Virus record (IMG/VR): IMGVR_UViG_3300045995_000108
Coordinates: 1-64,000 of that record
DNA length: 64,000 bases
Reading direction: 5' to 3' (one strand)
Source of the DNA: a virus
The position numbers and the translations under genes were made by a program. The notes under the pieces were generated by a model. It made no database searches, was not told the origin of the DNA, and saw only the letters and a program-made list of their open reading frames with translations. Each line of letters begins with the position of its first letter. Position 1 is the first letter of the stretch. Of this stretch, positions 5,344-43,097 are shown piece by piece.

Positions 5344-5355
5344 CAAAGGCGGCAC

Positions 5356-6639
5356 ATGGCAAATATAATTGACCGCCGCCTTAACCCAAAAGACAAACAG
5401 ATCAAGAATCGTCAGAAGTTTGTCCAGCGGTCCCGCGAGCAGATTAAAAAAGCTGTAAAGGATTCCATTGACTCTGGTAACATAGCTGACATTGAAGATG
5501 GTAAAGCTAAGATCAAAGTCAAAGGCATTGGAGAGCCAACTTTTGGTACAGACCCTAAAACAGGCGACAAGAAATATGTCATGCCTGGTAATAAGGAGTT
5601 TGTGCAAGGTGACAAACAAGACAAGCCACCAGAGGAAGAAGGCGGTGGTGGCACTGCCGGAGGACTAGGCACAAGTGAAGACGATTTTGAGTTTGTACTT
5701 AATCCTGAAGAGTATCTTAACTTCATCTTTGACGACCTTGAGCTGCCTGATCTAATCAAGAAGCAAATGAAGGACGTTACCAAGGTAAAGCCTAAACGTG
5801 CTGGCTTCTCCAACGCAGGCAACCCAGCTCAGCTTGATGTCGTTCGCTCCCTAAAGAACAGCATGGGACGCCGCATTGGCTTATCGCGCCCCAAGAAGAA
5901 AGACATTGAAGCACTAGAAGCAGAGATTCTTGAACTTGAAGCTGTAATGAGTGGTAACCCATTCAACAGTGCCGCTAATGCTCGTTGGAAGATAGCGACA
6001 GAAGAACTTGCTGCAATGCGTAAGCGTATGCACGCCGTGCCTTGGATGGACCCGTTTGATATCCGCTACCGTGCGTTCACTATGCAGCCACAGCCAATGA
6101 CCAAAGCAGTAATGTTCTGTGTCATGGACGTATCTGGTTCTATGGGACAACGCGAGAAGGATCTTGCTAAACGCTTTTTCTTCTTCTTGCATATGTTCCT
6201 CCGCCGCAAGTACGAGAAGGTAGAGATCATCTTCATTAAGCACCACGAAACAGCATACGAAGTTTCTGAAGACGACTTCTTCCACAGTAAAGACAGCGGT
6301 GGTACGGTTGTGTCTGGTGCGCTGGAACTAACAACTAACATTCTCAAAGAGCGTTACAATCTAAACGATTGGAACATCTATGTTGCTCAAGCAAGCGACG
6401 GCGACAACTATGCCGCAGACCACGACAAGTCCCTTAACTGTATGCACGCCTTATTGCCTCTTGTGCAATATTTTGCGTATGTAGAGATTGGTCGTGCATA
6501 CGGTACAGCAAGGGCGACAGACTTGTGGGATACTTATCAGCAGTTGCGCGAAGAGTATCACCAGCTTAACATGCGGGTTGTGCAGGATAAGAAAGATATC
6601 TGGAAAGTATTTAAAGAGCTATTCTCTAAGGAACATTAA
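5356..6639 (+). CDS. yeaH: YeaH/YhbH family protein (DUF444, vWA domain)
   Basis: The 427 residues equal the length of E. coli YeaH. The N-terminus is basic (IIDRRLNPKDKQIKNRQKF is the family signature), a Gly-rich linker follows near residues 93-106, and a von Willebrand A fold begins near residue 256 with the metal-site motif VMDVSGSMG. YeaH proteins act with the PrkA kinase; the biochemical role is not settled. The gene has an AAAGGCGG ribosome site and its stop overlaps the next start by one base (TAATG), which points to translational coupling with spoVR. Confidence 0.95.
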   Translation: MANIIDRRLNPKDKQIKNRQKFVQRSREQIKKAVKDSIDSGNIADIEDGKAKIKVKGIGEPTFGTDPKTGDKKYVMPGNKEFVQGDKQDKPPEEEGGGGTAGGLGTSEDDFEFVLNPEEYLNFIFDDLELPDLIKKQMKDVTKVKPKRAGFSNAGNPAQLDVVRSLKNSMGRRIGLSRPKKKDIEALEAEILELEAVMSGNPFNSAANARWKIATEELAAMRKRMHAVPWMDPFDIRYRAFTMQPQPMTKAVMFCVMDVSGSMGQREKDLAKRFFFFLHMFLRRKYEKVEIIFIKHHETAYEVSEDDFFHSKDSGGTVVSGALELTTNILKERYNLNDWNIYVAQASDGDNYAADHDKSLNCMHALLPLVQYFAYVEIGRAYGTARATDLWDTYQQLREEYHQLNMRVVQDKKDIWKVFKELFSKEH

Positions 6640-8087
6640 TGTCCAAATTACTATATGATAGCGACGACTGGTCGTTTGAACGTCTAGGCATTGTAGAAGA
6701 TGCAATTAAAGAGATAGCATACGACGAGTTGAACCTTGACGTCTATCCTAACCAGATTGAGATCATCTCCTCTGACCAAATGCTTGAGGCATACGCAAGC
6801 ATTGGTCTCCCACTGATGTACGATCACTGGAGTTTTGGTAAATCGTTCATCCAGCAAGAGCAATCGTATCGCAAAGGCCACCAAGGGCTTGCATACGAGA
6901 TTGTTATTAACAGTTCGCCTTGCATCTCCTACTTGATGGAGGAAAATTCCATGACAATGCAAGCATTGGTTATTGCTCATGCTTGTTACGGACACAATCA
7001 CTTCTTCAAGAACAACTACTTGTTCAAGCAATGGACTGATGCAGAGGGCATCCTTGACTACTTACAGTTTGCAAAGAACTATGTTGCAAAATGCGAAGAG
7101 AAGCATGGACGTCAAGCAGTAGAGGATACACTGGATGCCTGCCACGCTATTATGGACTACGGCGTTGATCGTTACAAGCGCCCAAGTAAGTTGAGCAAAG
7201 CTGCTGAAATGGAAGCACAAGAGCAACGTGCAGAGCGTGTACAACGCGAGGCAAATGAATTGTGGTCCACGATACCCAAGAAAGACAAAAAGGATGAGAA
7301 GGTTGTTAAGACATTTCCGTCTGAGCCACAAGAGAACCTTATGTACTTCATTGAGAAGCACAGTCCTGTTCTTGAATCGTGGCAACGTGAGTTGGTGCGT
7401 ATTGTACGTAAGACAGCACAATACTTTTATCCGCAACGGCAAACACAAGTGATGAACGAAGGTTGGGCCAGCTTTACACATTACTTTATTATGAACCGTC
7501 TGTGGGAAAAAGGACAAATCAGTGATGGCAACATGATGGAGTTCTTGCACTCGCACTCTGGGGTGTTGACGCAAAGGAAATTCAATGACAAACACTACTC
7601 CGGATTTAATCCTTATGCTATTGGGTTTGATCTCTATACTGATATTCGCCGTATATGCTCCGAACCCACCAAAGAAGATGAAGAGTTCTTTCCGCACCTG
7701 GTGGGTCAACCTTGGCTTCCCACTTGTCTTGACGCTGTGCGTAATTATCGTGATGAAAGCTTCATTTCACAGTTTCTGAGCCCACACCTAATTCGCAAGT
7801 GGGGATTGTTTGAGATTACAAACAAGGCTGCTGACAAGCATGTAACCATCTCCAACATTCAAGATGCTCGTGGGTACAATGCAGTACGCCAAAGCCTTGC
7901 ACAACAATATTCCGCAACATCACGCCAGCCGGACATTCAAGTCGTGGATGCTAACTTGCGTGGCAACCGCGAGTTGAAGCTGCAATACACATCACGCAAT
8001 GGCGCAAAGCTAAACAAGGACAAGGACAAAGTATTGTCCCACATTGGTAAGCTTTGGGGACACACTGTAACGATGTCTGACAAGTGA
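6639..8087 (+). CDS. spoVR: SpoVR family protein (YcgB-like)
   Basis: The 482-residue product carries the SpoVR signature near residues 50-65 (GLPLMYDHWSFGKSF) and family blocks such as HACYGHNHFFKNN and MNEGWASFTHYFIMNRL. In Bacillus SpoVR is needed for spore cortex formation; in proteobacteria YcgB is co-inherited with YeaG/YeaH and is a general-stress protein of unknown mechanism. It completes a three-gene operon that looks intact. Its presence in a phage suggests control of host stress or dormancy physiology during infection, which is an inference. Confidence 0.95.
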   Translation: MSKLLYDSDDWSFERLGIVEDAIKEIAYDELNLDVYPNQIEIISSDQMLEAYASIGLPLMYDHWSFGKSFIQQEQSYRKGHQGLAYEIVINSSPCISYLMEENSMTMQALVIAHACYGHNHFFKNNYLFKQWTDAEGILDYLQFAKNYVAKCEEKHGRQAVEDTLDACHAIMDYGVDRYKRPSKLSKAAEMEAQEQRAERVQREANELWSTIPKKDKKDEKVVKTFPSEPQENLMYFIEKHSPVLESWQRELVRIVRKTAQYFYPQRQTQVMNEGWASFTHYFIMNRLWEKGQISDGNMMEFLHSHSGVLTQRKFNDKHYSGFNPYAIGFDLYTDIRRICSEPTKEDEEFFPHLVGQPWLPTCLDAVRNYRDESFISQFLSPHLIRKWGLFEITNKAADKHVTISNIQDARGYNAVRQSLAQQYSATSRQPDIQVVDANLRGNRELKLQYTSRNGAKLNKDKDKVLSHIGKLWGHTVTMSDK

Positions 8088-21312: not shown

Positions 21313-21806
21313 TGTCAAATAACAATACAGCCGGCACAGTTGGCCAAGCTGGTGCTCAAGCAATCTTGGATATGCTTAAGCAAACGCCGTTGCATAATCA
21401 AAACTGGAATGCAATCGCAGGTGTCGGTGCAGCGGGACCAATTGGATCAACTATCCCTGGCAGCATTGTTACTGGTGGGCTGACAACGGGGAGCGTTATT
21501 TCGTCAGGCGCTGCGTCAAGCGGCTACGCTGCGAGCTTCCAGATTGCACCGACGGGCACATTGACGGCATCGAACTACAATGCTGGGCTTGACCTTAGGG
21601 GTGACGCTGACATCTTGATTGCAGGAATGAGTCTCAAAGATTTTATGAAGCAGGTAACGCTACGTCTTAACTTGATGGTTCCTAACCCAGAGATTGAAAA
21701 GCAGTGGGATGAGTTGCGAACGTTGGGTGAAGCATATCGTGCAGTAGAGAAGGAATGCTTAGAGAAGGCCAAAGTTTGGGACATTCTCAAACGGGACAAC
21801 ATCTAA
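21312..21806 (+). CDS. Conserved phage protein with helical C-terminus
   Basis: A 164-residue protein: a Gly/Ala/Ser/Thr-rich, probably disordered N-terminal 85 residues, then a conserved part (GMSLKDFMKQVTLRLNLMVP, followed by NPEIEKQWDELRTLGEAY) seen in many T4-type phage proteins of unknown function. TAATG coupling on both sides links it to the phosphoesterase and to the first gene of the tandem array. Confidence 0.8.
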   Translation: MSNNNTAGTVGQAGAQAILDMLKQTPLHNQNWNAIAGVGAAGPIGSTIPGSIVTGGLTTGSVISSGAASSGYAASFQIAPTGTLTASNYNAGLDLRGDADILIAGMSLKDFMKQVTLRLNLMVPNPEIEKQWDELRTLGEAYRAVEKECLEKAKVWDILKRDNI

Positions 21807-21991
21807 TGATTACTGTAACCCTCCCTGCAGATGTGCTGCTGGTAGCAGACGCTATTAAGTGGTGTGCTCTCAATATCCCAGACAAAGAAGGATGGGATAT
21901 GCAAGCAGACTTTAGTGCTAAGACGAAATACAGATTTGAGTTTGACGATGCGAGATATGCTACGTTATTTGCCTTGAAGTGGGTACATTAA
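21806..21991 (+). CDS. LRW-array protein 1
   Basis: A 61-residue protein and the first member of the array of small paralogues ending in an acidic-x-A-x-x-F-x-L-R/K-W signature; this one ends ARYATLFALKWVH. ATG 21806 overlaps the previous stop (TAATG). Function unknown. Confidence 0.75.
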   Translation: MITVTLPADVLLVADAIKWCALNIPDKEGWDMQADFSAKTKYRFEFDDARYATLFALKWVH

Positions 21992-21998
21992 ATAATGA

Positions 21999-22286
21999 AT
22001 GCCCATACCATTACACCACATTAACCTATACAAACATGGAACAATTGCATACTATAATGGCAATCCATACTTCATTGATTACGTTACAATTCGTGGCCAT
22101 GAACTATTTGTTCGTCTCGAGGGCTTACGTGATACCGTTGCGCCTCACGACATTAGCGTGGAGGTAACAGTAATTGACTTCAACAGAGAAAACGGCGGAC
22201 CAAGGGCATGGGTTGACAGCAATGCGAGTCCTAATGAACCAGTACCCATTCAAAGTCCAGGCCTACCAGACGACTGGGTCTTCTAG
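21999..22286 (+). CDS. Hypothetical protein within the array
   Basis: A 95-residue protein (IAYYNGNPYFIDYVTIRG, then LRDTVAPHDISVEVTVIDF) without the LRW ending. Start codon uncertain: ATG 21999 has no good ribosome site. It is one of only a few array genes of another type. Confidence 0.55.
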   Translation: MPIPLHHINLYKHGTIAYYNGNPYFIDYVTIRGHELFVRLEGLRDTVAPHDISVEVTVIDFNRENGGPRAWVDSNASPNEPVPIQSPGLPDDWVF

Positions 22287-22584
22287 CTGGGGCGATGCTG
22301 ATCTGATCAGCTTGCGGAAATACTGCATGGACGATGCAGCGTTTACAATGAAGGTAATGAAGAATCTTCAATACGGTCCCATTGCTACAGTGCCTAACAT
22401 TATTCAGGTTACTGGCCCGCACACAGTTGACGGCGAACCTTGGTATCAAATTGACCTTGACTATGAAGCTGCGCAATGGTTACGTGAGCTCGGTGATAAT
22501 CGAGTTATTGAGATAAAAGACATTGATCGCTGCTTCAACATCCCAGAAGATATTTACATCATGACTAAACTGAAGTGGGCTTAA
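22234..22584 (+). CDS. LRW-array protein 2
   Basis: A 116-residue array member ending EDIYIMTKLKWA. ATG 22234 is chosen; ATG 22222 or 22174 in the same frame would overlap the preceding gene more. It contains VTGPHTVDGEPWYQIDLDYE. Confidence 0.65.
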   Translation: MNQYPFKVQAYQTTGSSSWGDADLISLRKYCMDDAAFTMKVMKNLQYGPIATVPNIIQVTGPHTVDGEPWYQIDLDYEAAQWLRELGDNRVIEIKDIDRCFNIPEDIYIMTKLKWA

Positions 22585-22585
22585 T

Positions 22586-22957
22586 ATGGCACTGGAATCA
22601 TTTGATACACTGTACTGCAAGATAAAAGCCAATGGCGGATGGAAGCCTGGCAAGTTGATAACTTTTACTGGACGGCAATCAGGTAAGTCGACGTTCATGC
22701 AACAGTATATGACACAATGGGTCATGGAGCCTATACAGCCGTTTGCAAGAGTGCAGCTCGGCGCACCACTGCGCGATATGGTTGTGTGCGATGTGAACCA
22801 AGAGATTCAAGACTGGTTAATGGCAAACTTTGAGCCAGGTAAACTGTGGAAATACTTTACGACAAAAGACATTCACGGTGATTACCCTGGGCAGGGCAGG
22901 GATCGCGTTGCTATGCGTCAAGATGTTTATACTGCCCTTGTGTTGAGGTGGTCATGA
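22586..22957 (+). CDS. LRW-array protein 3 with P-loop-like motif
   Basis: A 123-residue member ending VYTALVLRWS. The N-terminal half has a Walker A-like loop, TFTGRQSGKSTF (residues ~26-37), but no Walker B can be seen, so nucleotide binding is only possible. The AGG TGG codons of its C-terminus form a GAGGTGG ribosome site just before the next ATG. Confidence 0.7.
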   Translation: MALESFDTLYCKIKANGGWKPGKLITFTGRQSGKSTFMQQYMTQWVMEPIQPFARVQLGAPLRDMVVCDVNQEIQDWLMANFEPGKLWKYFTTKDIHGDYPGQGRDRVAMRQDVYTALVLRWS

Positions 22958-23145
22958 GTTACGAGTATTACGTTCAACGCAAGTCAGGTATTGACAGACT
23001 TGAAAGCGAAGAAGCTTGGTTAGAACGAATGGAAGATATGCGGCAGTGGTGCTATGACAGATTTGAAAAATGGGGCAGATCGCAAGAAATATTTTGGTTC
23101 CAGAAAGAAGAAGATTACGCAATGTTTATGCTGAGGTGGGCATGA
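22954..23145 (+). CDS. LRW-array protein 4
   Basis: A 63-residue member (MSYEYYVQRKSGIDRLES...) ending EEDYAMFMLRWA. It has the family's central W-C cluster (RQWCYDRFEKWG). ATGA overlaps link it to both neighbours, with GAGGTGG upstream of each start. Confidence 0.75.
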   Translation: MSYEYYVQRKSGIDRLESEEAWLERMEDMRQWCYDRFEKWGRSQEIFWFQKEEDYAMFMLRWA

Positions 23146-23330
23146 GCAAGTTTATTAAAGTCACAATAGACAAGGACAAGTTCTTTGAGGCTAAGAAGTG
23201 GGCTAAGAAAACATTTGGGAGAGCAAACCCAAATAAAGGACCGTGGAGCGACATGGTGTGGTATGCACATCATCACTTTTACTTCTCTGTCCCTGAACAC
23301 GCAACGATGTTTATGTTGAGGTGGATGTAA
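23142..23330 (+). CDS. LRW-array protein 5
   Basis: A 62-residue member with the central KKTFGRANPNKGPW block and the ending EHATMFMLRWM. ATG 23142 is preceded by CTGAGGTGGGC from the C-terminal codons of protein 4. Confidence 0.75.
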   Translation: MSKFIKVTIDKDKFFEAKKWAKKTFGRANPNKGPWSDMVWYAHHHFYFSVPEHATMFMLRWM

Positions 23331-23548
23331 TGGCAAAAGTATTGTTAACTGATGCAAAGTTTGAGTACAGGTATGCTCAACAGATTTTTAAAGAGCGTGA
23401 GTCGTGGGCACGGGAACATTGCCCGTCGTTTATGCAAATGGACATAGTTGATGTGAGTGACTATACTTACGAGTACGACCAAATTGCAACATACGAGTTT
23501 GGCGACGAGAAAGATGCGTTCTGGTTTACGACTGCGTGGCAATCATGA
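23330..23548 (+). CDS. LRW-array protein 6 (degenerate end)
   Basis: A 72-residue member whose end, EKDAFWFTTAWQS, keeps the acidic-Ala-Phe spacing but lacks Leu-Arg. The start shares a base with the previous stop (TAATG), again downstream of GAGGTGG. Confidence 0.65.
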   Translation: MAKVLLTDAKFEYRYAQQIFKERESWAREHCPSFMQMDIVDVSDYTYEYDQIATYEFGDEKDAFWFTTAWQS

Positions 23549-23766
23549 TGCGAGTAAGACTTAAAGACAGGATGAAGATACACGCCGAGGGCGGAAACTC
23601 GCAAGCATATCTTGAAGAGGTGTATGCTTGGTTGGAAGAAGTGATACCTAACCCGCCCCTGCCAGAGGAACAGAATTTTACATTTGGTAACGGTGAATAT
23701 TTTGGACACATAGAGTTTAAAGACGATGACTACGCTACGTTGTTTGCGCTCAAATACGGGTACTGA
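23545..23766 (+). CDS. LRW-array protein 7
   Basis: A 73-residue member ending DDDYATLFALKYGY, with Tyr replacing Trp. It has the pattern of a helical first half (LEEVYAWLEEVIP). ATG 23545 or 23548. Confidence 0.7.
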   Translation: MMRVRLKDRMKIHAEGGNSQAYLEEVYAWLEEVIPNPPLPEEQNFTFGNGEYFGHIEFKDDDYATLFALKYGY

Positions 23767-23776
23767 GGAACAAGGA

Positions 23777-24031
23777 ATGATTAAGACAGTAATCAGGTTT
23801 ACGCCGGATATGTACGCTGACCAAAAGACACAACTTAAAGTTGATGTTGAAGCTTGGCTGGTTGAAATGTTTGGACCAGCAGTACCACGCAATAACAATA
23901 AGACACGCAGGCGCAAAAAGTGGTCGATAAAGACAAGCTACTGGGATACTAATAATCCGTCAGGAACAGTCGAAGTGTTCACTCGCTCTCCACAAGATGC
24001 GACGCTGGTGGCACTAAGGTGGGCAAAATGA
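23777..24031 (+). CDS. LRW-array protein 8
   Basis: An 84-residue member with VEAWLVEMFGPAVPR and a basic loop, ending PQDATLVALRWAK. ATG 23777 has its own GAGGAACAAGG ribosome site, because the preceding gene does not end in AGG TGG next to it. Confidence 0.75.
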   Translation: MIKTVIRFTPDMYADQKTQLKVDVEAWLVEMFGPAVPRNNNKTRRRKKWSIKTSYWDTNNPSGTVEVFTRSPQDATLVALRWAK

Positions 24032-24246
24032 CAGCATACGAATCAGCAGCACAGTTTACCCGTGTGTTTCCGTACTGTGTTTCCTTTCCTCGCACTGACG
24101 ATTGGTGGAACGGAGAGTGGCGAGATATAAGCAACTGGTGCTCCGAGACAATAGGTGGTGTTGTGACACATTGGGAATACATGGACAAGTGTTTTTGGTT
24201 TAAGAGGGAAGAGGACAAAACTCTGTTTTTACTAAAATGGAAATAA
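24028..24246 (+). CDS. LRW-array protein 9
   Basis: A 72-residue member with DISNWCSETIGGVV, a KCFWFKREED segment and the ending EEDKTLFLLKWK. The start is an ATGA overlap preceded by TAAGGTGGGC. Confidence 0.75.
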   Translation: MTAYESAAQFTRVFPYCVSFPRTDDWWNGEWRDISNWCSETIGGVVTHWEYMDKCFWFKREEDKTLFLLKWK

Positions 24247-24431
24247 GCGACATGATTGGCGTGGCAGTTGAGCGTTGGGATTACACCCACAGGGCGTGGG
24301 TGTGCACTTGGCTTACTGAAACATTTGGCGAACGTGGCAAGGAGACTTGGTTATTAGATCAAGACTACGATTTGCTTACGCTATGCATGACACCGGAGAT
24401 ATACACTCTGTATAAACTAAAATGGGAATAA
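24237..24431 (+). CDS. LRW-array protein 10
   Basis: A 64-residue member (WVCTWLTETFGERGKETW) ending PEIYTLYKLKWE. Its ATG lies inside AAATGG, the Lys-Trp codons of protein 9, so the family motif itself supplies the start codon. ATG 24252 is an alternative. Confidence 0.65.
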   Translation: MEISDMIGVAVERWDYTHRAWVCTWLTETFGERGKETWLLDQDYDLLTLCMTPEIYTLYKLKWE

Positions 24432-24622
24432 CTTTTGATCATCGGCCTGATCGCCAGTATCATTATGAGACAGTGATAAATTATAGGCCATTGCGACATA
24501 GTATGCTTGCTTGGTTGCTAGAAACATACGGGCCACCGGGTACTGAATGGGACGGCTACGGCTCTTGGATTAAAATTAGAAGCGAGGAAGATGCAACATT
24601 CTTCTTACTAAAATGGAGTTAA
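24422..24622 (+). CDS. LRW-array protein 11
   Basis: A 66-residue member (SMLAWLLETYGPPGTEWDG) ending EEDATFFLLKWS. Its ATG is again formed by the AAATGG codons of the preceding gene. Confidence 0.7.
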   Translation: MGITFDHRPDRQYHYETVINYRPLRHSMLAWLLETYGPPGTEWDGYGSWIKIRSEEDATFFLLKWS

Positions 24623-24858
24623 CAACAGTAAGTCCAGAGACGTTGGACAAAGTGTGGCAAAAGTGGCGAACGGAGCATAGTGCACCAAATGATGTGTGGG
24701 AGCGAAGCTATCAAAGAGTTACTCGGCGCTTTGGTGGCAAGCAGTTTGAAGAATGGTTGTTTACTGAAGGCGCAGTAGTGCAACAGATTAACGGCAAACG
24801 CCACTTACAGTTTATGGATGAAGAACAAGCATCTTACTTTTTATTGAGGTACGCATGA
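24613..24858 (+). CDS. LRW-array protein 12
   Basis: An 81-residue member ending EEQASYFLLRYA, started from the AAATGG of protein 11. Its own TTG AGG TAC end forms GAGGT just before the next ATGA. Confidence 0.7.
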   Translation: MELTTVSPETLDKVWQKWRTEHSAPNDVWERSYQRVTRRFGGKQFEEWLFTEGAVVQQINGKRHLQFMDEEQASYFLLRYA

Positions 24859-25073
24859 TACCCAGACTACCATACTTGCAAAATGCAGTAAGTGGATATC
24901 ACAAACTACACCCAAGTAGTATTTGGTACCCAAATGCTTATAACTCGTATATCCAGTGGATGCAAGAACAAGGAGTCATTATGCCGATAAAGATGGAGGG
25001 CGATATAGATAGCGTCCGTATAGAATTTACTGATCCAGAATCAGAAACATTGTTTGTATTGAGGTGGGCATGA
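24855..25073 (+). CDS. LRW-array protein 13
   Basis: A 72-residue member ending PESETLFVLRWA. ATGA overlaps on both sides; GAGGTGGGC precedes the next start. Confidence 0.75.
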   Translation: MIPRLPYLQNAVSGYHKLHPSSIWYPNAYNSYIQWMQEQGVIMPIKMEGDIDSVRIEFTDPESETLFVLRWA

Positions 25074-25291
25074 TGAATTGGAACTACTTTGTTAGGGACA
25101 CATGTGACTCCCCATTGGAGAACCCGTACTTTGAATGGGCACGAGAACAGTTTGGTAACATAGGCCCACGGTGGGATGCAAACTTCCAGGGATACTGGTT
25201 TATGAACAAGGAGGATGTCACTCTGTTCATGTTGCGTTGGTCAGGGCACCCACATTTAGGAGAGGTTGAAACAGATGAGTCACACAATTAA
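25070..25291 (+). CDS. LRW-array protein 14 (extended C-terminus)
   Basis: A 73-residue member with FEWAREQFGNIGPRW and KEDVTLFMLRW, followed by a 17-residue tail. Its Arg codon is CGT, not AGG, and the next gene instead uses an AGGAGAGG site inside the tail. ATG 25070 or 25073. Confidence 0.75.
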   Translation: MMNWNYFVRDTCDSPLENPYFEWAREQFGNIGPRWDANFQGYWFMNKEDVTLFMLRWSGHPHLGEVETDESHN

Positions 25292-25502
25292 AGGCGATTG
25301 CAGTGCAAGCGAGCATGCCGCCCGATTTACGCGGGACAAATATAGTATTCCGTTTGATGAAACCATTGTCCCTAAGTTTGAGGCAGAGTTTAACTGCATA
25401 CTTGATTTTGGCAAGGACAAGCCAGATGCATATATGTATCCAGATTGGATTCAGTTTGAGACTGAGCAGGAAATGATGATGTTTCTGCTGCGATTTGCAT
25501 AG
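25275..25502 (+). CDS. LRW-array protein 15
   Basis: A 75-residue member (MSHTIKGDCSASEHAARFTR...) ending EQEMMMFLLRFA. ATG 25275 follows AGGAGAGGTTGAAACAG. Its last codons are part of the next promoter. Confidence 0.7.
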   Translation: MSHTIKGDCSASEHAARFTRDKYSIPFDETIVPKFEAEFNCILDFGKDKPDAYMYPDWIQFETEQEMMMFLLRFA

Positions 25503-25523
25503 TAAATAATCTTATTGTATAAT
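25495..25523 (+). promoter_or_regulatory. Sigma70-like promoter, leaderless class, inside the array
   Basis: TTGCAT-17-TATAAT, 6 nt before ATG 25530. It splits the array into transcription units. Confidence 0.65.
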
Positions 25524-25529
25524 GTTAAT

Positions 25530-25937
25530 ATGGTAAAACCTACACGCCCTTGGCCCAATCCGCATCGCAATGCTGCTGAACTAGCATTGTATTCGGCACA
25601 GATAAAAGTGATGAACGCTACGAAAAGCATAGCAGCTAAAGTGCTGTGGAAGTTTGGATCTGGACCAGAAGTAGTGGTTAAGTGGCCTGTTGGTTGGGTA
25701 TTGCTACATCAGAACGATGATGGTAGCGCAGTTAGCGCAGACTCAGCTGATCCAAACGATCACTATCGCCCATGGCTTGAAGCCAACGTAGGGAATCAGG
25801 GTTGGGACTGGGATTGGAAGATTAGTGGTATAGCTGCTGATAACGGTTTTGGAACAACAGGCGTTGATACAATATGTATCAAGCTGCGGAAGAAACAGGA
25901 ACATTTCGCAAGCGTAATTGCGTTAAAATGGGCATAG
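25530..25937 (+). CDS. LRW-array protein 16
   Basis: A 135-residue, longer member with a basic/Pro-rich N-terminus and the ending EHFASVIALKWA. Predicted leaderless start at ATG 25530. Confidence 0.7.
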   Translation: MVKPTRPWPNPHRNAAELALYSAQIKVMNATKSIAAKVLWKFGSGPEVVVKWPVGWVLLHQNDDGSAVSADSADPNDHYRPWLEANVGNQGWDWDWKISGIAADNGFGTTGVDTICIKLRKKQEHFASVIALKWA

Positions 25938-25958
25938 TACAAGAGTACAGTATTTTAT

Positions 25959-25989
25959 CCTTAAATCAGTTATACATATTCATTTAAGG
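25959..25989. promoter_or_regulatory. Inverted repeat upstream of array gene 17
   Basis: CCTTAAAT (25959-25966) and ATTTAAGG (25982-25989) flank 15 nt. It sits in one of the few gaps of the array and its right arm provides part of the AAGGTG ribosome site, so it could be an operator or a translation-controlling hairpin. Confidence 0.4.
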
Positions 25990-25997
25990 TGAACACA

Positions 25998-26408
25998 ATG
26001 AGATTAATGACAGCAGTTAAAGCGTTTTTTGATAAACGCGAGCAAGCTAAAAAAGCAGAGGCCAGAGCAGCATTGATATGGCCGCAAGCGTCACGAGTAG
26101 TGGATTTTTACAAAGGGTATCCGTATGTATTTGCTGTCCCTTGGCAGTGCTATGATAATGAATATTGGTCTCAGTTTTCTGATTCTTACGAAGGGATGGG
26201 AGAACTCATGGACTGGTGTCGCGAACACGATTTCAAAGAATTTCGCAGCGATGTACATAGAGTAAGTTTGTCAAATACGTACAATTCTCACAATGCGTCT
26301 GAATATATATTTGACGAGATGGGTGGCGGCGATGTAAAGTTCTTTGCTTTTACGTCATCTGAGGATTTTTGTTTCTTTGCACTACGCTGGGGTTACATTG
26401 CCAGTTAA
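25998..26408 (+). CDS. LRW-array protein 17
   Basis: A 136-residue member with a basic helical N-terminus, the MDWCREHDFKEF block and SEDFCFFALRWGYIAS at the end. ATG 25998 follows TTAAGGTGAACACA; GTG 25989 is an alternative. The Arg codon is CGC and no start follows immediately. Confidence 0.7.
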   Translation: MRLMTAVKAFFDKREQAKKAEARAALIWPQASRVVDFYKGYPYVFAVPWQCYDNEYWSQFSDSYEGMGELMDWCREHDFKEFRSDVHRVSLSNTYNSHNASEYIFDEMGGGDVKFFAFTSSEDFCFFALRWGYIAS

Positions 26409-26466
26409 CATAGGAAGCATTTCCTACTCTGAAGGCGGATTTGATGAGTTTCCTGCGGGTAGCGTT

Positions 26467-26703
26467 ATGTCTAAAGTAGATTACATAGCATACCCTACTG
26501 GAAAAATACCAAGGCCGCCAAAAGGTTACCACTTTCAGATTCAATGCGTGGGTGCTGCCAATTGGGAGTTAGTTAGTCAAAGGCTTGCACAATGCAGATC
26601 AATGATGGAGTTTAATTTTAGATATAACGGTGGCAATAGCTACTTTGATGTTCATTTAACAGACGAGAAAGATATCACATGGTTGAGACTTGCCCTGGCA
26701 TAA
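26467..26703 (+). CDS. LRW-array protein 18 (degenerate end)
   Basis: A member of about 78 residues whose end, EKDITWLRLALA, is a diverged form of the signature. The start is uncertain: ATG 26467 gives the usual length, while TTG 26398 would follow the overlap pattern of the array. Confidence 0.55.
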   Translation: MSKVDYIAYPTGKIPRPPKGYHFQIQCVGAANWELVSQRLAQCRSMMEFNFRYNGGNSYFDVHLTDEKDITWLRLALA

Positions 26704-26915
26704 AGCGCACAGTACACTTGAAAGAGTATCCTAAGTTTTGGGAACGGCTGCGTATTTCCGTATTGAAGTCCAGCTATCAAACAACCGCAGCAGGTGCAGA
26801 GCAAGTGATGAAAGAAGAGTTTGGTATTGACGTGGATATACGATCAGCAGACAAGTTAGGCACAGTAATGATGGATGAGGGAACCTATTCTTGGTTCATA
26901 CTACAATGGAGTTGA
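26679..26915 (+). CDS. LRW-array protein 19
   Basis: A 78-residue member (VETCPGIKRTVHLKEYPKFW) ending EGTYSWFILQWS. The start is the ATG in ACATGG within the preceding gene's diverged motif. Confidence 0.65.
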   Translation: MVETCPGIKRTVHLKEYPKFWERLRISVLKSSYQTTAAGAEQVMKEEFGIDVDIRSADKLGTVMMDEGTYSWFILQWS

Positions 26916-27142
26916 AAAAAGTAACACGCTCTAAGTTCAAGGTAACTATTGAGTGGCCTGAGTTTGATCGCGAAATGCTGTCATGGGCTGAGACTATTTT
27001 TGGCACAGGTGGTGGTCGCGGCACTTGGCGGTATGGGTGGGGTCACTGGATCAAAAGCCAAGACTCTACTCACCGCTTTTTCTTCCGGCGCGAGGAAGAT
27101 GCAACAATGTTTATGCTAAGGTGGGCAAACAATGGAAGATAA
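26906..27142 (+). CDS. LRW-array protein 20
   Basis: A 78-residue archetypal member: LSWAETIFGTGGGRGTW, RFFFRREED and ATMFMLRWANNGR. ATG 26906 is formed by CAATGG (Gln-Trp codons) of protein 19. Confidence 0.75.
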   Translation: MELKKVTRSKFKVTIEWPEFDREMLSWAETIFGTGGGRGTWRYGWGHWIKSQDSTHRFFFRREEDATMFMLRWANNGR

Positions 27143-27536
27143 AGACGCAGATGCAGTGTCAGTAATAGGCAAGATTATCATGCCTGTGATGCGCAAACTC
27201 GCACCTGGATTGATAGCACAACAGATCGTAGGTGTGCAACCAATGACATCCGTGATTACTACCAACGGAGAGTTAGTGTTGGGCACTGCATTTCTTGGCG
27301 GCTCTAAGGAAGGTGAATGGTTTACTGTATCTATTTCTAAGCCCTTCTCCTTTTACTTTGGTAAGGTAGAGAAGAAAACAGACGAGTACAGGAACTGGTG
27401 CATTACAACGTTTGGCGAGTCTTACAATCACCTAACTGACCAATGCTTTTGGTTTGAGCGCGACGATAGGTTCTACTTCCGTAATGAGGCGGATAGAATG
27501 TTGTTCGTATTGAAATGGACACCCAATGGACAGTAA
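27132..27536 (+). CDS. LRW-array protein 21
   Basis: A 134-residue member with an extra N-terminal 65 residues, then YRNWCITTFGE, RFYFRNEAD and LFVLKWTPNGQ. Start lies within AACAATGG near the end of protein 20, 11 nt after TAAGGTGG. Confidence 0.75.
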   Translation: MEDKDADAVSVIGKIIMPVMRKLAPGLIAQQIVGVQPMTSVITTNGELVLGTAFLGGSKEGEWFTVSISKPFSFYFGKVEKKTDEYRNWCITTFGESYNHLTDQCFWFERDDRFYFRNEADRMLFVLKWTPNGQ

Positions 27537-27816
27537 AGAAGCAATGTGGTTCCACGCGAACTACAACATACAAGAGTTTACAATACAAGATGACATTCGT
27601 TCCTTTGACGATGGACCAATGACCTACCAAATTCGCGGCGACAGAGGAACAGCAACAATAAAGCTGCCTACTCTTGCAGTGGAACGTCTTGTGCAAAATG
27701 CTAAGATTGGATTTGATGAACTTGAACGAGCAAGGGCAAGGGCAGATCATCCTAATGTGCAGGAAGCGTATGACGCATATATCACGCTACTTGCACTAAG
27801 TACAAAATATGACTAA
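27526..27816 (+). CDS. Hypothetical protein within the array
   Basis: A 96-residue protein without the LRW signature; its second half is a long charged helix (VERLVQNAKIGFDELERARA). Its start, CCCAATGG, lies near the end of protein 21, like its neighbours. Confidence 0.65.
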   Translation: MDSKEAMWFHANYNIQEFTIQDDIRSFDDGPMTYQIRGDRGTATIKLPTLAVERLVQNAKIGFDELERARARADHPNVQEAYDAYITLLALSTKYD

Positions 27817-28096
27817 CAAAGATGACGAAGAAATGGCCCGTGCGATGAGTGATTTCCTGGTCCCATGGGATTGGAACGATGTCATTTTGCACGAATACAA
27901 AGACGAGCACCTTGATTGGTGCCGTAGTAATGGATTGGTGTTTGGTAAGGACTTTTACATGCACATAGCAGAAGGTACTGAGCCCTCATACAACCCAAAG
28001 CAGAAATGGCCTTTCCCAGAATACAAAAAGATCCATCATTATCTGTTTAAAGACGCAGAAATGGCAACAGCATTTACACTAACATTTTTGACTTAA
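27809..28096 (+). CDS. LRW-array protein 23 (degenerate end)
   Basis: A 95-residue member with HLDWCRSNGLVFG and the diverged ending DAEMATAFTLTFLT. It is the last gene before a second internal promoter. Confidence 0.65.
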   Translation: MTNKDDEEMARAMSDFLVPWDWNDVILHEYKDEHLDWCRSNGLVFGKDFYMHIAEGTEPSYNPKQKWPFPEYKKIHHYLFKDAEMATAFTLTFLT

Positions 28097-28116
28097 AAAC
28101 AATCTTATTGTACAAT
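28088..28116 (+). promoter_or_regulatory. Sigma70-like promoter, leaderless class, inside the array
   Basis: TTGACT-17-TACAAT, 5 nt before ATG 28122. Confidence 0.75.
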
Positions 28117-28121
28117 GCAAC

Positions 28122-28424
28122 ATGGAAATAATGTCGCGTGAAGAATTCAAGGATAGGTTTAGTGTTGACTTTAACGAAGTAATACGTGCAGACCATCCAC
28201 TTTGGATTCCTGAAAATGATTTTGCACCTAAGACTAAGTGCATAAAGTTTGTACTGACTACGAAGCTTAACTTTACGAGTGAAGCAAAGTATGAATATTG
28301 GGAATGGTGCAACAGTACGCTGAACGGCATCGTGCGTTGCTTTTCTTCTGGTGACGAAAATGAATGGTGGGGTTTTTCTGACCCTGATGACGTTGTTATT
28401 TGGACTCTTAAGTGGGCAAAATGA
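28122..28424 (+). CDS. LRW-array protein 24
   Basis: A 100-residue member with YWEWCNSTLNG, a WWGFSDPDD segment and the ending VVIWTLKWAK. Predicted leaderless start. Ends in an ATGA overlap. Confidence 0.7.
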   Translation: MEIMSREEFKDRFSVDFNEVIRADHPLWIPENDFAPKTKCIKFVLTTKLNFTSEAKYEYWEWCNSTLNGIVRCFSSGDENEWWGFSDPDDVVIWTLKWAK

Positions 28425-28735
28425 AATACTTTTTACAGTGGTTAGTGAATGATATTAAGACGAGCTGGGCAGTAGATGCAGAGTCTCGTGCGAGAATGTG
28501 GGGTCATTTTTTAGACGTGGCTAAGTTTTTAGTTAGAATTTTTTCTGCGATAACGTTGATTGTCTCGGCAATATCAATTATTTTAATAACGGCAGAAGAT
28601 GGTCGCATTAACTGGGTCCGCGTTAGTGGTGTTATGATTGCATTACTGGTATTGAACGGTTCTATTTTCCTTGCTGGCAAGCTACGTAAATTTCGCAGCG
28701 AAAAAGATCAGCTAGTGCAAATGCTCAAAGAATAA
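28421..28735 (+). CDS. Membrane protein within the array
   Basis: A 104-residue protein with two hydrophobic segments (IFSAITLIVSAISIILIT and GVMIALLVLNGSIFLAG) and no LRW ending. It is the only clear membrane protein of the array and may anchor or export other members, which is speculation from position. Confidence 0.7.
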   Translation: MKYFLQWLVNDIKTSWAVDAESRARMWGHFLDVAKFLVRIFSAITLIVSAISIILITAEDGRINWVRVSGVMIALLVLNGSIFLAGKLRKFRSEKDQLVQMLKE

Positions 28736-28736
28736 A

Positions 28737-28982
28737 ATGAAAAAGCTGGTGTCACGTATCAAGGAACGTAAGGGCAACGACCACTATGTGGAAGTGCTGC
28801 TCTACGAACAAGCTACGCACCCAGACGAGTTTAACGATTACTACGACATAGACGAGGCTGATCTCATTGCTATTGCTGATTGGGTTACAGCGCACGAACT
28901 TGGTAAGCGTACATCACATAACCATTGGAAGCTAAACAGCAAAGAAGCTGTGACAATGTTTTTACTACGGTGGAACCAATGA
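28737..28982 (+). CDS. LRW-array protein 26
   Basis: An 81-residue member (LIAIADWVTAHELGKRTSHN) ending KEAVTMFLLRWNQ. ATGA overlap with the next gene, preceded by ACGGTGG. Confidence 0.75.
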   Translation: MKKLVSRIKERKGNDHYVEVLLYEQATHPDEFNDYYDIDEADLIAIADWVTAHELGKRTSHNHWKLNSKEAVTMFLLRWNQ

Positions 28983-29185
28983 TAAAGCAAGCGTGGAAAA
29001 ACTATAAGCACATAGCAGAGGACTACAAAACCAAGGACGAGTTTGGAATATCATTTGATGGTGCTCGTTTTTGGAGCGACCTTCACGAACAGTTTGGTGC
29101 ACACGCTGACGGATTAGGTGGAATTTACTTTGACACAGAAGAAGGTGAACTGTGCTTCATCTTGAAGTACACAAAAGCAAAATGA
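28979..29185 (+). CDS. LRW-array protein 27
   Basis: A 68-residue member (RFWSDLHEQFGAHADGLG) ending EGELCFILKYTKAK. ATGA overlap with the next gene. Confidence 0.7.
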   Translation: MIKQAWKNYKHIAEDYKTKDEFGISFDGARFWSDLHEQFGAHADGLGGIYFDTEEGELCFILKYTKAK

Positions 29186-29385
29186 TAACGTTCTCTGAGC
29201 GCGAGTGGGATGCAGTAAAAGAAACGTTGGCAGAAGACCACGGACCAACGATTATGCTGCTCCGTAATAGGTGCAAAGAGACGTTGGGATTTACTGTACG
29301 TTACGGCGTTTACGCCGCTCAAGAAGTGCATTTAGACTTCTTTGATGACACCAAGGAGACTTGGTTTAGGCTTCGTTACCTTTAG
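29182..29385 (+). CDS. LRW-array protein 28, last member
   Basis: A 67-residue member ending TKETWFRLRYL. Its 3' end overlaps the convergent homing endonuclease gene by 20 nt. The Arg codon is CGT, as expected where no array gene follows. Confidence 0.7.
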   Translation: MITFSEREWDAVKETLAEDHGPTIMLLRNRCKETLGFTVRYGVYAAQEVHLDFFDDTKETWFRLRYL

Positions 29386-30088
29386 ATCTACATTTTTCAA
29401 AGTGCCATTGCTTCATTACACCGCCCCCGCCACTTTTTCCGCAATGCGGACAGGTGACTATTATCTTTTGTTTTCCCCTATTAGCTTGCGCAATTTTTTC
29501 AATGTGCTCTGCCGTCCGTGGAGGCTTCTTTCGGCCTCGCTGGAAATCCGCAATTTTTTGGTTGTGCTCGGCTGTATGAACCTTACCTATATTTTTGGCC
29601 CCGCATTTAGCTTTAGTAGATTCCGAGTGTGTCTGTCCAAGTCTGGATTCTCTTATTTTTTGGATGTGTTCGGGCGAATTAGTGAGGCCTTTTCTGTTTT
29701 GATTTCCTTTACTGGAATTAGAAATTTTTTCCCTAACTTCGGGCGGCCGTTCGCGTCCCAAACTTCCACCGTATAATCCATCTTCAATTACTAAGTTTGC
29801 CCATTGTTTTGAAATAACAATATCGTTATCTTCAGAGAATTTAAGAGCATAGCTCACTAAAGAATGTATGTCAGTAAACAATTCACACCAAATAGTTTCT
29901 ACGTTGGATTTTCCGTGTTTAGCTAAATGAGCTTTCCAAATTTTCCCAGAGCCAGAATATTTGTAGGGATCTGGCCTGGTCGTTTTTCCGAAGTATTTCA
30001 ACCCAGTGATGGTATGCTGCTTTATATAAAGCCAAGTTGGCTTAAAAGTAGCTTGCTTTATATTTAAATTTTTAGTATAATGGTACAT
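29366..30088 (-). CDS. GIY-YIG homing endonuclease with NUMOD3 repeats
   Basis: A 240-residue Seg-type endonuclease. The N-terminus has WLYIKQHTITGLKYFGKTT, the diverged GIY-YIG core, followed by KYSGSG and the helix around WANLVIEDGLYGG. Repeated DNA-binding NUMOD3-like units follow (SPEHIQKIRESRLGQTHSES, TAEHNQKIADFQRGRK, TAEHIEKIAQANRGK) and a C-terminal zinc finger (CPHCGKSGGGG...HFEKC). Such free-standing genes spread by cutting related phages that lack them. It lies antisense to all neighbours at the end of the tandem array, which suggests insertion there. Confidence 0.9.
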   Translation of the reverse strand: MYHYTKNLNIKQATFKPTWLYIKQHTITGLKYFGKTTRPDPYKYSGSGKIWKAHLAKHGKSNVETIWCELFTDIHSLVSYALKFSEDNDIVISKQWANLVIEDGLYGGSLGRERPPEVREKISNSSKGNQNRKGLTNSPEHIQKIRESRLGQTHSESTKAKCGAKNIGKVHTAEHNQKIADFQRGRKKPPRTAEHIEKIAQANRGKQKIIVTCPHCGKSGGGGVMKQWHFEKCRSKGNEA

Positions 30089-30100: not shown

Positions 30101-30147
30101 GCAAATGATGCTAAAGAAACCTTTTATTGACCTCAGAAAAGAACAAT

Positions 30148-30462
30148 ATGATTGATGATGCAGTTTTAGAATATGGGAAGCAAGTCAACGAGCTGATGGG
30201 CCCAATGGGCATCACAGCAGATGTGCACGAGCACGAGTCTTGCTACTACTTAACAGTGGACGGAAGCAAGCTGTATCCAACTGATGCAGAGTGGGTGGCA
30301 AACATTGGTAAAGGCTTTGTTGAATTCGTGCATGTCTTTGTGCCCAAGATGTTTACTGAGATGGAAGCAGCAACGATCAACGAGACTCGCGTTGAGTTTC
30401 GCATTGGTACACTGTTTGACATGATGGTACGGATTAAAGAATATGGCACCGAAGAGGATTAA
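30148..30462 (+). CDS. Hypothetical protein
   Basis: A 104-residue soluble acidic protein (MIDDAVLEYGKQVNELMGPM...). An upstream TTG (30127) is less likely than ATG 30148. No domain recognised. Confidence 0.7.
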   Translation: MIDDAVLEYGKQVNELMGPMGITADVHEHESCYYLTVDGSKLYPTDAEWVANIGKGFVEFVHVFVPKMFTEMEAATINETRVEFRIGTLFDMMVRIKEYGTEED

Positions 30463-42609: not shown

Positions 42610-42817
42610 AAAGTATAACGACTTGCTCGCAAGGTTGAACCAAGCATGGCGTTACGGTCCTCATGGTCTTGTCCCACAAATTCAAATGATGATGGAACAC
42701 TACAAGACCGAAATCTCAGAGCGTATGATCAAACAACAGCAAGACATGGCTGAACGTGCAGCCAAAGGTAAAACTAAAGATGGCAAGGGTTATACTGGAG
42801 TCATTGACATTGTCTAG
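42557..42817 (+). CDS. Conserved T4-type phage protein
   Basis: An 86-residue helical protein (MHPLAPSLKDVPDQELYKKY...) with a basic tail, similar in style to short conserved proteins of T4-type phages. ATG 42557 overlaps the lipoprotein gene by 53 nt; no better start exists. Confidence 0.7.
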   Translation: MHPLAPSLKDVPDQELYKKYNDLLARLNQAWRYGPHGLVPQIQMMMEHYKTEISERMIKQQQDMAERAAKGKTKDGKGYTGVIDIV

Positions 42818-43097
42818 CATTCCGTTTAACATTGTTAGGGAAGCGGTGGGCAAAACGCACAGGCTACAAGCAAAATGGACAATACAACAGATGCCTGAAG
42901 AACCAACTTGGTACGAGGAATACGAACTCACCGACGAGGAAAAAGAAGGATTGGGTCCCGTAGAGCAGGAGGTGTGGAAAGCTCTTAAAACATCAAAGAT
43001 GCTCGACTTAGAGTCCGAGATTATGGATATGCTGTCTGCAGAAATATGTAAAGAGATGGATGCGCAAATTCTTAAGGAAATGTTACGTGGAACATAA
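42810..43097 (+). CDS. Acidic hypothetical protein, TTG start likely
   Basis: A product of about 95 residues. SSIPFNIVREAVGKTHRLQA KWT is followed by a very acidic helical part (EIMDMLSAEICKEMDAQIL), faintly like the N-terminal region of T4-type capsid proteins. TTG 42810 has TGGAG 9 nt upstream and only 8 nt of overlap; ATG 42780 is the alternative. Confidence 0.65.
   Translation: MSSIPFNIVREAVGKTHRLQAKWTIQQMPEEPTWYEEYELTDEEKEGLGPVEQEVWKALKTSKMLDLESEIMDMLSAEICKEMDAQILKEMLRGT

Follow-up and report, generated by a model that had tools for sequence, protein, structure and literature searches.

A chain of overlapping small genes with one phage-specific domain in a giant T4-type phage, and its fusions to segments of the major capsid protein

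What might a phage do with a long head-to-tail run of small genes that share a single type of C-terminal end? The question is raised by positions 21806-29385 of a 64,000-nucleotide stretch of viral DNA (the window, meaning the whole stretch analysed), which is part of the 115,428 bp IMG/VR virus record IMGVR_UViG_3300045995_000108 and in which tandem genes end in a common LRW signature. We show that the interval belongs to the accessory genome of a giant T4-type phage and that a single small domain specific to phages, here called the LRW domain, has been multiplied there into an overlapping chain of genes. The anatomy is well supported. As to function, we tentatively infer a set of exchangeable small binding proteins, some of which may mimic the T4-type major capsid protein (MCP; Gp23, PF07068, phrog_138).

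A sequence-only reading of the window had described 28 genes of 61-136 codons in this interval, about 26 of them sharing the C-terminal signature. The array, its place and its strand are as described; the gene count and sizes need slight revision, to 29 consecutive + strand open reading frames (ORFs) of ~61-139 aa, and the figure of about 26 members holds if marginal ones are counted, the solid members numbering 19-21. Most neighbouring ORFs overlap by a few bases, as ATGA or TAATG, and because the first in-frame start often falls within the upstream gene, several of the listed N-termini are uncertain. The shared signature itself is far above chance: a strict pattern, [FYWLVIM]-x-L-[RKQ]-[WYF] within the last residues, occurs in 21 of the 29 array genes but in just 2 of the 136 genes predicted elsewhere on the + strand of the 115 kb record (Fisher p = 5e-18); among shuffled tails its rate is 0.7%. 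Array paralogues also match one another by tblastn, with E down to ~1e-7. A hidden Markov model (HMM) trained on 114 LRW members, all from other phages, recovered 19 array genes at E < 0.01, with bit scores above the best of 2,900 shuffled sequences (<= 11.3 bits). Six more genes match it weakly (g24, g19, g20, g04, g17 and g25), g03 has an LKWA end as its sole LRW trait, and the domain is absent from g02 (21999-22286), g23 (27526-27816) and g26 (28421-28735). The features are listed below; E values refer to this outside HMM unless another model is named, and L numbers are our labels for stretches of phage DNA.

21806..21991, + strand: g01, LRW-domain gene (E 7e-10)
21999..22286, + strand: g02, small gene within the array without LRW domain (neither motif nor HMM match)
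22222..22584, + strand: g03, LKWA end, of a subfamily related to Walker-A fused members elsewhere (motif only, E 4.9)
22586..22957, + strand: g04, Walker-A fragment (GRQSGKSTF) and weak LRW C-terminus (E 0.16; similar fusion in L061, L011 and L064)
22954..23145, + strand: g05, LRW-domain gene (E 3.6e-9)
23142..23330, + strand: g06, LRW-domain gene (E 7e-12)
23330..23548, + strand: g07, LRW-domain gene with degenerate end, TTAWQS (E 2.6e-6)
23548..23766, + strand: g08, LRW-domain gene (E 6.7e-8)
23777..24031, + strand: g09, LRW-domain gene (E 3.2e-7)
24028..24246, + strand: g10, LRW-domain gene, fold predicted (E 8e-9; AlphaFold2 pLDDT 85.5)
24237..24431, + strand: g11, LRW-domain gene (E 0.0017)
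24422..24622, + strand: g12, LRW-domain gene (E 3.5e-12)
24613..24858, + strand: g13, LRW-domain gene ending LRYA (E 2.6e-4)
24855..25073, + strand: g14, LRW-domain gene (E 3.1e-6)
25070..25291, + strand: g15, LRW-domain gene with additional C-terminal tail (E 4.5e-11; ortholog-like gene at L093 3901-4125, by its sequence)
25275..25502, + strand: g16, LRW-domain gene, next gene uncoupled, Arg codon CGA (E 3.4e-6; codons)
25509..25524, + strand: promoter-like motif ATCTTATTGTATAATG in an array gap (exact match)
25530..25937, + strand: g17, ALKWA end, weak LRW match (E 0.17)
25998..26408, + strand: g18, LRW-domain gene whose long N-terminal module (FDEMGGGDVKFFAF) is also conserved in L059, L060, L061, L062, L063 and L064 (E 1.6e-4)
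26398..26703, + strand: g19, degenerate LRW-like end (E 0.11)
26679..26915, + strand: g20, ILQWS end, weak LRW match (E 0.11)
26906..27142, + strand: g21, LRW-domain gene (E 2.2e-10)
27132..27536, + strand: g22, MCP N-terminal segment (aa ~9-39, 27156-27248) fused to an LRW domain (PF07068 E 1.2e-5, phrog_138 7.8e-6, MCP HMM 2e-9, LRW HMM 1e-9)
27526..27816, + strand: g23, small gene without LRW domain (E 2.2)
27809..28096, + strand: g24, degenerate LRW-like end (E 0.03)
28102..28117, + strand: promoter-like motif ATCTTATTGTACAATG in an array gap (exact match)
28122..28424, + strand: g25, LKWAK end (weak with the outside HMM, E 0.17; 6.8e-6 with an HMM including the window)
28421..28735, + strand: g26, small gene with a hydrophobic, membrane-like stretch in its sequence and no LRW domain
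28737..28982, + strand: g27, LRW-domain gene (E 4e-5)
28979..29185, + strand: g28, LRW-domain gene (E 0.0021)
29182..29385, + strand: g29, last LRW gene, ending LRYL, Arg codon CGT, nothing coupled downstream (E 6.6e-4; codons)
42756..43097, + strand: small ORF standing alone, which has the middle segment of MCP (spine helix) and no LRW domain (PF07068 162-197, E 4.3e-5 / 9.4e-4; MCP HMM 1.5e-5)

An AlphaFold2 model of g10, built from an alignment of 49 members, has a mean pLDDT (predicted local distance difference test) of 85.5 and runs helix, strand, helix, strand, strand, helix, with the LRW residues at the end of the last helix; the domain is confidently predicted as a beta-alpha-beta-beta-alpha fold. 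A C-terminal tag or degron is disfavoured, since the model puts LRW in the last helix of a folded domain. Foldseek found no match to this fold in the PDB. Against BFVD it returned dozens of unnamed uncultured-phage proteins and one of Atu_ph07, the top ten with probability 1.00; these proteins (for example A0A6J5T1G0, and A0A2L0UZY0 of Atu_ph07) are like the LRW domain in predicted fold but are uncharacterised, with neither name nor function. Pfam and PHROG contain no family matching the C-terminal LRW domain, PADLOC gave no defence profile common to several members, only scattered weak matches to single ones, and a direct literature search for such arrays, or for capsid fragments as decoys, returned nothing relevant. 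The LRW domain is an undescribed family: the libraries searched contain no known family, fold or paper on it, nor on the array or the fusions, in agreement with the sequence-only reading, which had recognised no described system. Its proposal that a single small domain has been duplicated many times and has diverged fast is likewise borne out by the single fold, by the frequency of the motif and by the single-gene turnover described below. Neither outcome that it had set against that proposal is seen: the model does not give unrelated folds with a chance C-terminal match, and the motif is not as frequent elsewhere as in the array. The arms-race roles it had suggested (anti-defence, superinfection exclusion, inhibition of host targets) are candidate functions.

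LRW arrays are present in more than ten IMG/VR contigs, with up to 29 genes (L010) and 25 (L062). A tblastn search of cultured phages with a single LRW member gave no match, and a profile is needed to detect the family there: profile search located 34 places in Sinorhizobium phage Phosso and 7 in Agrobacterium phage Atu_ph07, both cultured. The Phosso genes form several clusters, are annotated as hypothetical, and are mostly without coupling through LRW. The profile found no match in three ~640 kb phages (W01-W03; LR756502, LR745206 and LR756504), the domain is absent by profile search from eight other T4-type phages, and no relatives were found in a scan of bacterial genomes. The DNA polymerase of the window is nearest to those of giant T4-superfamily phages, namely Phosso, Atu_ph07 and Rak2-like phages.

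The conserved end appears to do double duty. The last codons of LRW genes read TTG AGG TGG nnA TGA, in which AGGTGG is Shine-Dalgarno-like and the following gene has its ATG within the overlap at the stop. Arginine is encoded by AGG in 74 of 92 coupled LRW ends, as against 27 of 457 Arg codons in other window genes; the ATG falls exactly 5 or 8 nt after the Arg codon in 78 of the 92, the overlap is ATGA in 62, and in several seeming exceptions, with TCGTGA, the coupled start is GTG. Dual coding is here a direct reading of the sequence, and translational coupling is predicted from gene arrangement. Such regularity, AGGTGG followed by ATG at fixed spacing, could suggest that the shared end is merely a nucleotide signal, a ribosome-binding site plus the next start, translated by chance. 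We find that explanation scarcely credible, and as a full account it is refuted: members without a coupled gene keep LRW, with the Arg codon mostly CGA, CGC, CGT or AGA, the LRW ends of Phosso use other codons throughout, and the motif extends over a folded domain. Because LRW persists with other codons where no gene follows, it must also be selected in the protein. The codon pattern thus indicates a motif under selection in the protein whose codons have been put to a second use, as a signal for translation.

Comparison of arrays suggests how they change. When arrays from different phages are compared at the DNA level, each of the 17 matches covers one gene, and in 13 of them the match stops no more than 15 nt from where the gene ends in both arrays. 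Gene order differs as well: neighbours at L009 7947, 8270 and 8500 correspond to L010 8129, 6068 and 3008, and L010 8467-8733 shares 92% identity with L060 2569-2844, the flanking genes being different. These matches indicate that array genes turn over between phages as single-gene cassettes. Integron gene cassettes are similar in being single-gene units in shuffled order with common junctions, but the junction in the array is coding and ribosome-binding sequence and its unit boundaries lie at stop/start overlaps; no attC-like site or integrase was seen in the array, no search having been aimed at either.

Some members carry a recognisable module in front of the domain. Before its LRW domain, g22 matches PF07068 positions 3-32 (E 1.2e-5), which passes the curated cut-off; in its model the LRW part is confident and the MCP part is not, the latter resembling an appended segment. 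The same type of fusion with the MCP N-terminal segment is found in L008/L057, L009, L010, L012/L059, L016 and L093, and an LRW gene with the MCP middle segment in L008/L057, L058, L059, L060, L061, L064, L016 and L093, the two being adjacent in L057, L059 and L016. In a scan of 109 LRW proteins against 24,736 Pfam and 38,880 PHROG models, no families except Gp23 and two major head protein families had matches to several of the proteins, and Pfam Gp23 matches reached 3.9e-12. An MCP HMM places every piece in one of three intervals, ~61-107, 200-262 and 385-446, which are the N-terminal segment, the middle helix and the C-terminal strand region; conserved segments are detected more easily, and pieces from variable MCP regions could be missed. 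Thus three short conserved segments of Gp23 recur as N-terminal modules on LRW domains or as stand-alone small ORFs, but in small proteins of 65-226 aa with one segment each and without the full HK97 fold. Where a full-length HK97-fold MCP would have ~400-570 aa, PF07068 coverage is only 3-32, 162-197 or 305-327, in proteins of 105-134 aa. The N-terminal segment (IVGVQPMT) is the best-conserved module in LRW fusions, and from one fusion to another it varies far less than the remainder of the proteins that carry it. In one LRW subtype (YKFSR...FGPHPK...DAWSRWWH) the N-terminus is the MCP N-terminal segment (L057, L093), a Walker-A piece (L064) or another sequence (L060, L090, L092). Walker-A fragments of the GRQxGKST type are N-terminal modules at window 22586-22957, L011 8606-8923, L061 8686-9036 and L064 6767-7183.

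Phosso has a full MCP plus an MCP C-terminal segment fused to LRW (114 kb, at 113923-114303). Its gene 276 (PV764938.1 182175-182855; L077 1396-2076) has a longer frame of 226 aa that opens with the MCP N-terminal segment, followed by a collagen-like stretch; the gene was probably annotated from a downstream start that excludes the segment. The phages W01-W03 have full MCPs and, in addition, the same MCP segments in ORFs of 50-79 aa, or 65-75 aa by a narrower count, that share a basic tail of a different type, [KR]RxKIxxIFK:

L050 1429-1656 and 1634-1786 (- strand), L054 1462-1674, L055 1495-1692, L056 1453-1656: MCP-segment ORFs of W01-W03

The eight control T4-type phages have one MCP each and no MCP pieces, and we reject the idea that such pieces are a common trait of T4-type phages. 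The splitting of one MCP gene is also disfavoured, given the intact MCPs that Phosso and W01-W03 hold besides scattered pieces; it may still apply to the window phage, whose 115 kb record is a fragment in which no full MCP was found. Comparing the pieces with own and foreign MCPs gave no resolution at 25-50 residues. Two further ORFs are recorded here. A small one at 95759-96076 of the record (L003 16759-17076) has a weak match to the Gp23 C-terminal segment (E 0.05) and a loosely LRW-like end, FQLKR. A 126 aa protein at L033 7743-8123 has the MCP N-terminal segment at its C-terminus, and its front resembles, by eye, the window gene at 30127-30462 just behind the array in an IGT-x-FD-like stretch.

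As to the surroundings of the array, an endonuclease-like gene on the - strand (29366-30088) abuts the last array gene; it has a NUMOD3 motif and matches GIY-YIG below threshold (0.0087). A homing endonuclease as the usual neighbour of such arrays is not convincing, having been seen beside the window array and in one other record only. A promoter-like motif, (A/G)(T/C)CTTA(T/A)TGTA(T/C)AATG, has 13 matches in the window as against 1.8 expected, at sites including 3352, 8673, 9453, 25509, 28102, 31425, 49633, 51818 and 55620; the two exact copies that occupy array gaps, at 25509 and 28102, are putative promoters. Further upstream, positions 3400-8087 encode a YeaG-like kinase followed by two genes that, by gene order, could be YeaH and SpoVR. 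The YeaG homologue shares 65% identity with a gene from the record of Enterobacter phage LAU1 and 58-63% with those of three ~640 kb uncultured phages.

Surfaces that diverge on an unchanging scaffold suggest a multiplicity of binding partners, and conserved MCP segments on that scaffold suggest MCP mimicry. The reading we put forward, which is plausible and may well prove wrong, combines the two: small binding proteins built on a common scaffold and encoded as a cassette array, certain of them acting as capsid-protein mimics directed against a host sensor or a rival phage. Each LRW gene can be lost, gained or exchanged by itself, so that related arrays have individual genes in common but in another order, and the constant LRW domain bears variable N-terminal modules. 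On the reading proposed, this domain would act as a rapidly evolving binding scaffold with each member aimed at a different partner, and the set would be delivered together. Members with an MCP segment would occupy a partner that recognises MCP, candidates being a host immune sensor, host factors (EF-Tu, a chaperone) or the MCP of a competing phage, its assembly being poisoned. A stronger form, which we consider doubtful, holds that giant phages keep a shuffled, operon-linked library of binding proteins with spliced core-protein pieces, above all the three MCP segments, as baits that blind host sensors or poison competing T4-type capsid assembly, the constant C-terminus serving as a ribosome-binding junction that would allow insertion anywhere.

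Judged by position, the MCP N-terminal segment may be the counterpart of the Gol region of T4 gp23 and cover a conserved site that is read by a host suicide system; in T4 this region is part of the full MCP, whereas here it would be on a separate small protein. T4 offers the precedent of a host system that reads a conserved MCP segment, in Gol, EF-Tu and Lit (PMC3014915), and a further one is CapRel, which is reported to be directly activated by a capsid protein (PMC9712102). Amplified anti-defence loci of T-even phages (tifA, gp49.2; SegB-driven tandem amplification) resemble the array as tandem accessory genes of T4-type phages, and the endonuclease-like gene adjoining the array may be a parallel to SegB; those loci consist of recent near-identical repeats, whereas LRW paralogues are old, diverged and exchanged singly (PMC13096335). 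Tandem accessory genes in T4-type phages are thus known, and a cassette library with captured capsid segments is not; the newness concerns anatomy, and the function could prove to be of a known kind.

Several observations weigh against mimicry on a cassette scaffold. Few LRW proteins carry MCP pieces (by Pfam, 8 of 109), g22 is the only clear MCP-LRW fusion in the window, and the MCP-middle matches are individually weak in several members. Pieces occur without LRW at window 42756-43097, in L033, in Phosso (182 kb) and in W01-W03, and mimicry and the LRW scaffold are therefore separable. The DNA matches show turnover and not its mechanism, because their stop at gene ends owes partly to differing neighbours. 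Finally, a mimic containing the Gol region could trigger, not block, a Lit-like sensor.

Three other explanations deserve comparison with the mimic reading. LRW proteins might be virion or prohead proteins, with MCP segments as docking modules into or onto the capsid and the array supplying injected internal proteins. That MCP is the only recurrent known module is in keeping with this, as is the abundance of virion proteins of unknown function in giant T4-type phages, among them Atu_ph07, which has LRW genes and is reported to have 131 virion proteins, 78% without function (PMC6102473). We nevertheless think it unlikely, as most members have no MCP segment, the three segments are parts of the core fold and not known targeting signals, and the text of that paper does not put LRW genes in the virion. 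Quite unlikely, too, is a recombination nursery in which open frames arise as sequences are duplicated and fragments captured, most of the MCP and Walker-A pieces being functionless debris. Fast single-gene turnover, the NUMOD3-bearing gene next to the array and the derivation of pieces from a core gene would all be expected of it; intact frames, an N-terminal segment far better conserved than its fusion partners, recurrence of the same three segments in unrelated lineages and the lack of pieces in the eight control phages would not.

A third possibility is that members with the MCP N-terminal segment are EF-Tu ligands that modulate translation or shield EF-Tu from Lit-type proteases. We judge this improbable: it leaves the middle and C-terminal MCP segments and the Walker-A pieces unexplained, and the overlap with Gol on which it depends is drawn from position. 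In its favour, the Gol region, 29 residues within the first quarter of gp23, is described as the most conserved part of that protein and binds EF-Tu domains II/III, and the N-terminal segment agrees with it in region and conservation (PMC3014915).

Even without mimicry, the LRW domain is an undescribed family present in many copies in several giant phages. If the mimic reading is true, phages would use capsid-protein fragments of their own kind as interchangeable mimics, with the ends of the scaffold genes serving as plug-in junctions. The arrays would then lead straight to novel capsid-reading sensors of the host or targets in rival phages, and would amount to a ready list of candidate inhibitors. 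The cultured Sinorhizobium phage Phosso makes the mimic reading testable.

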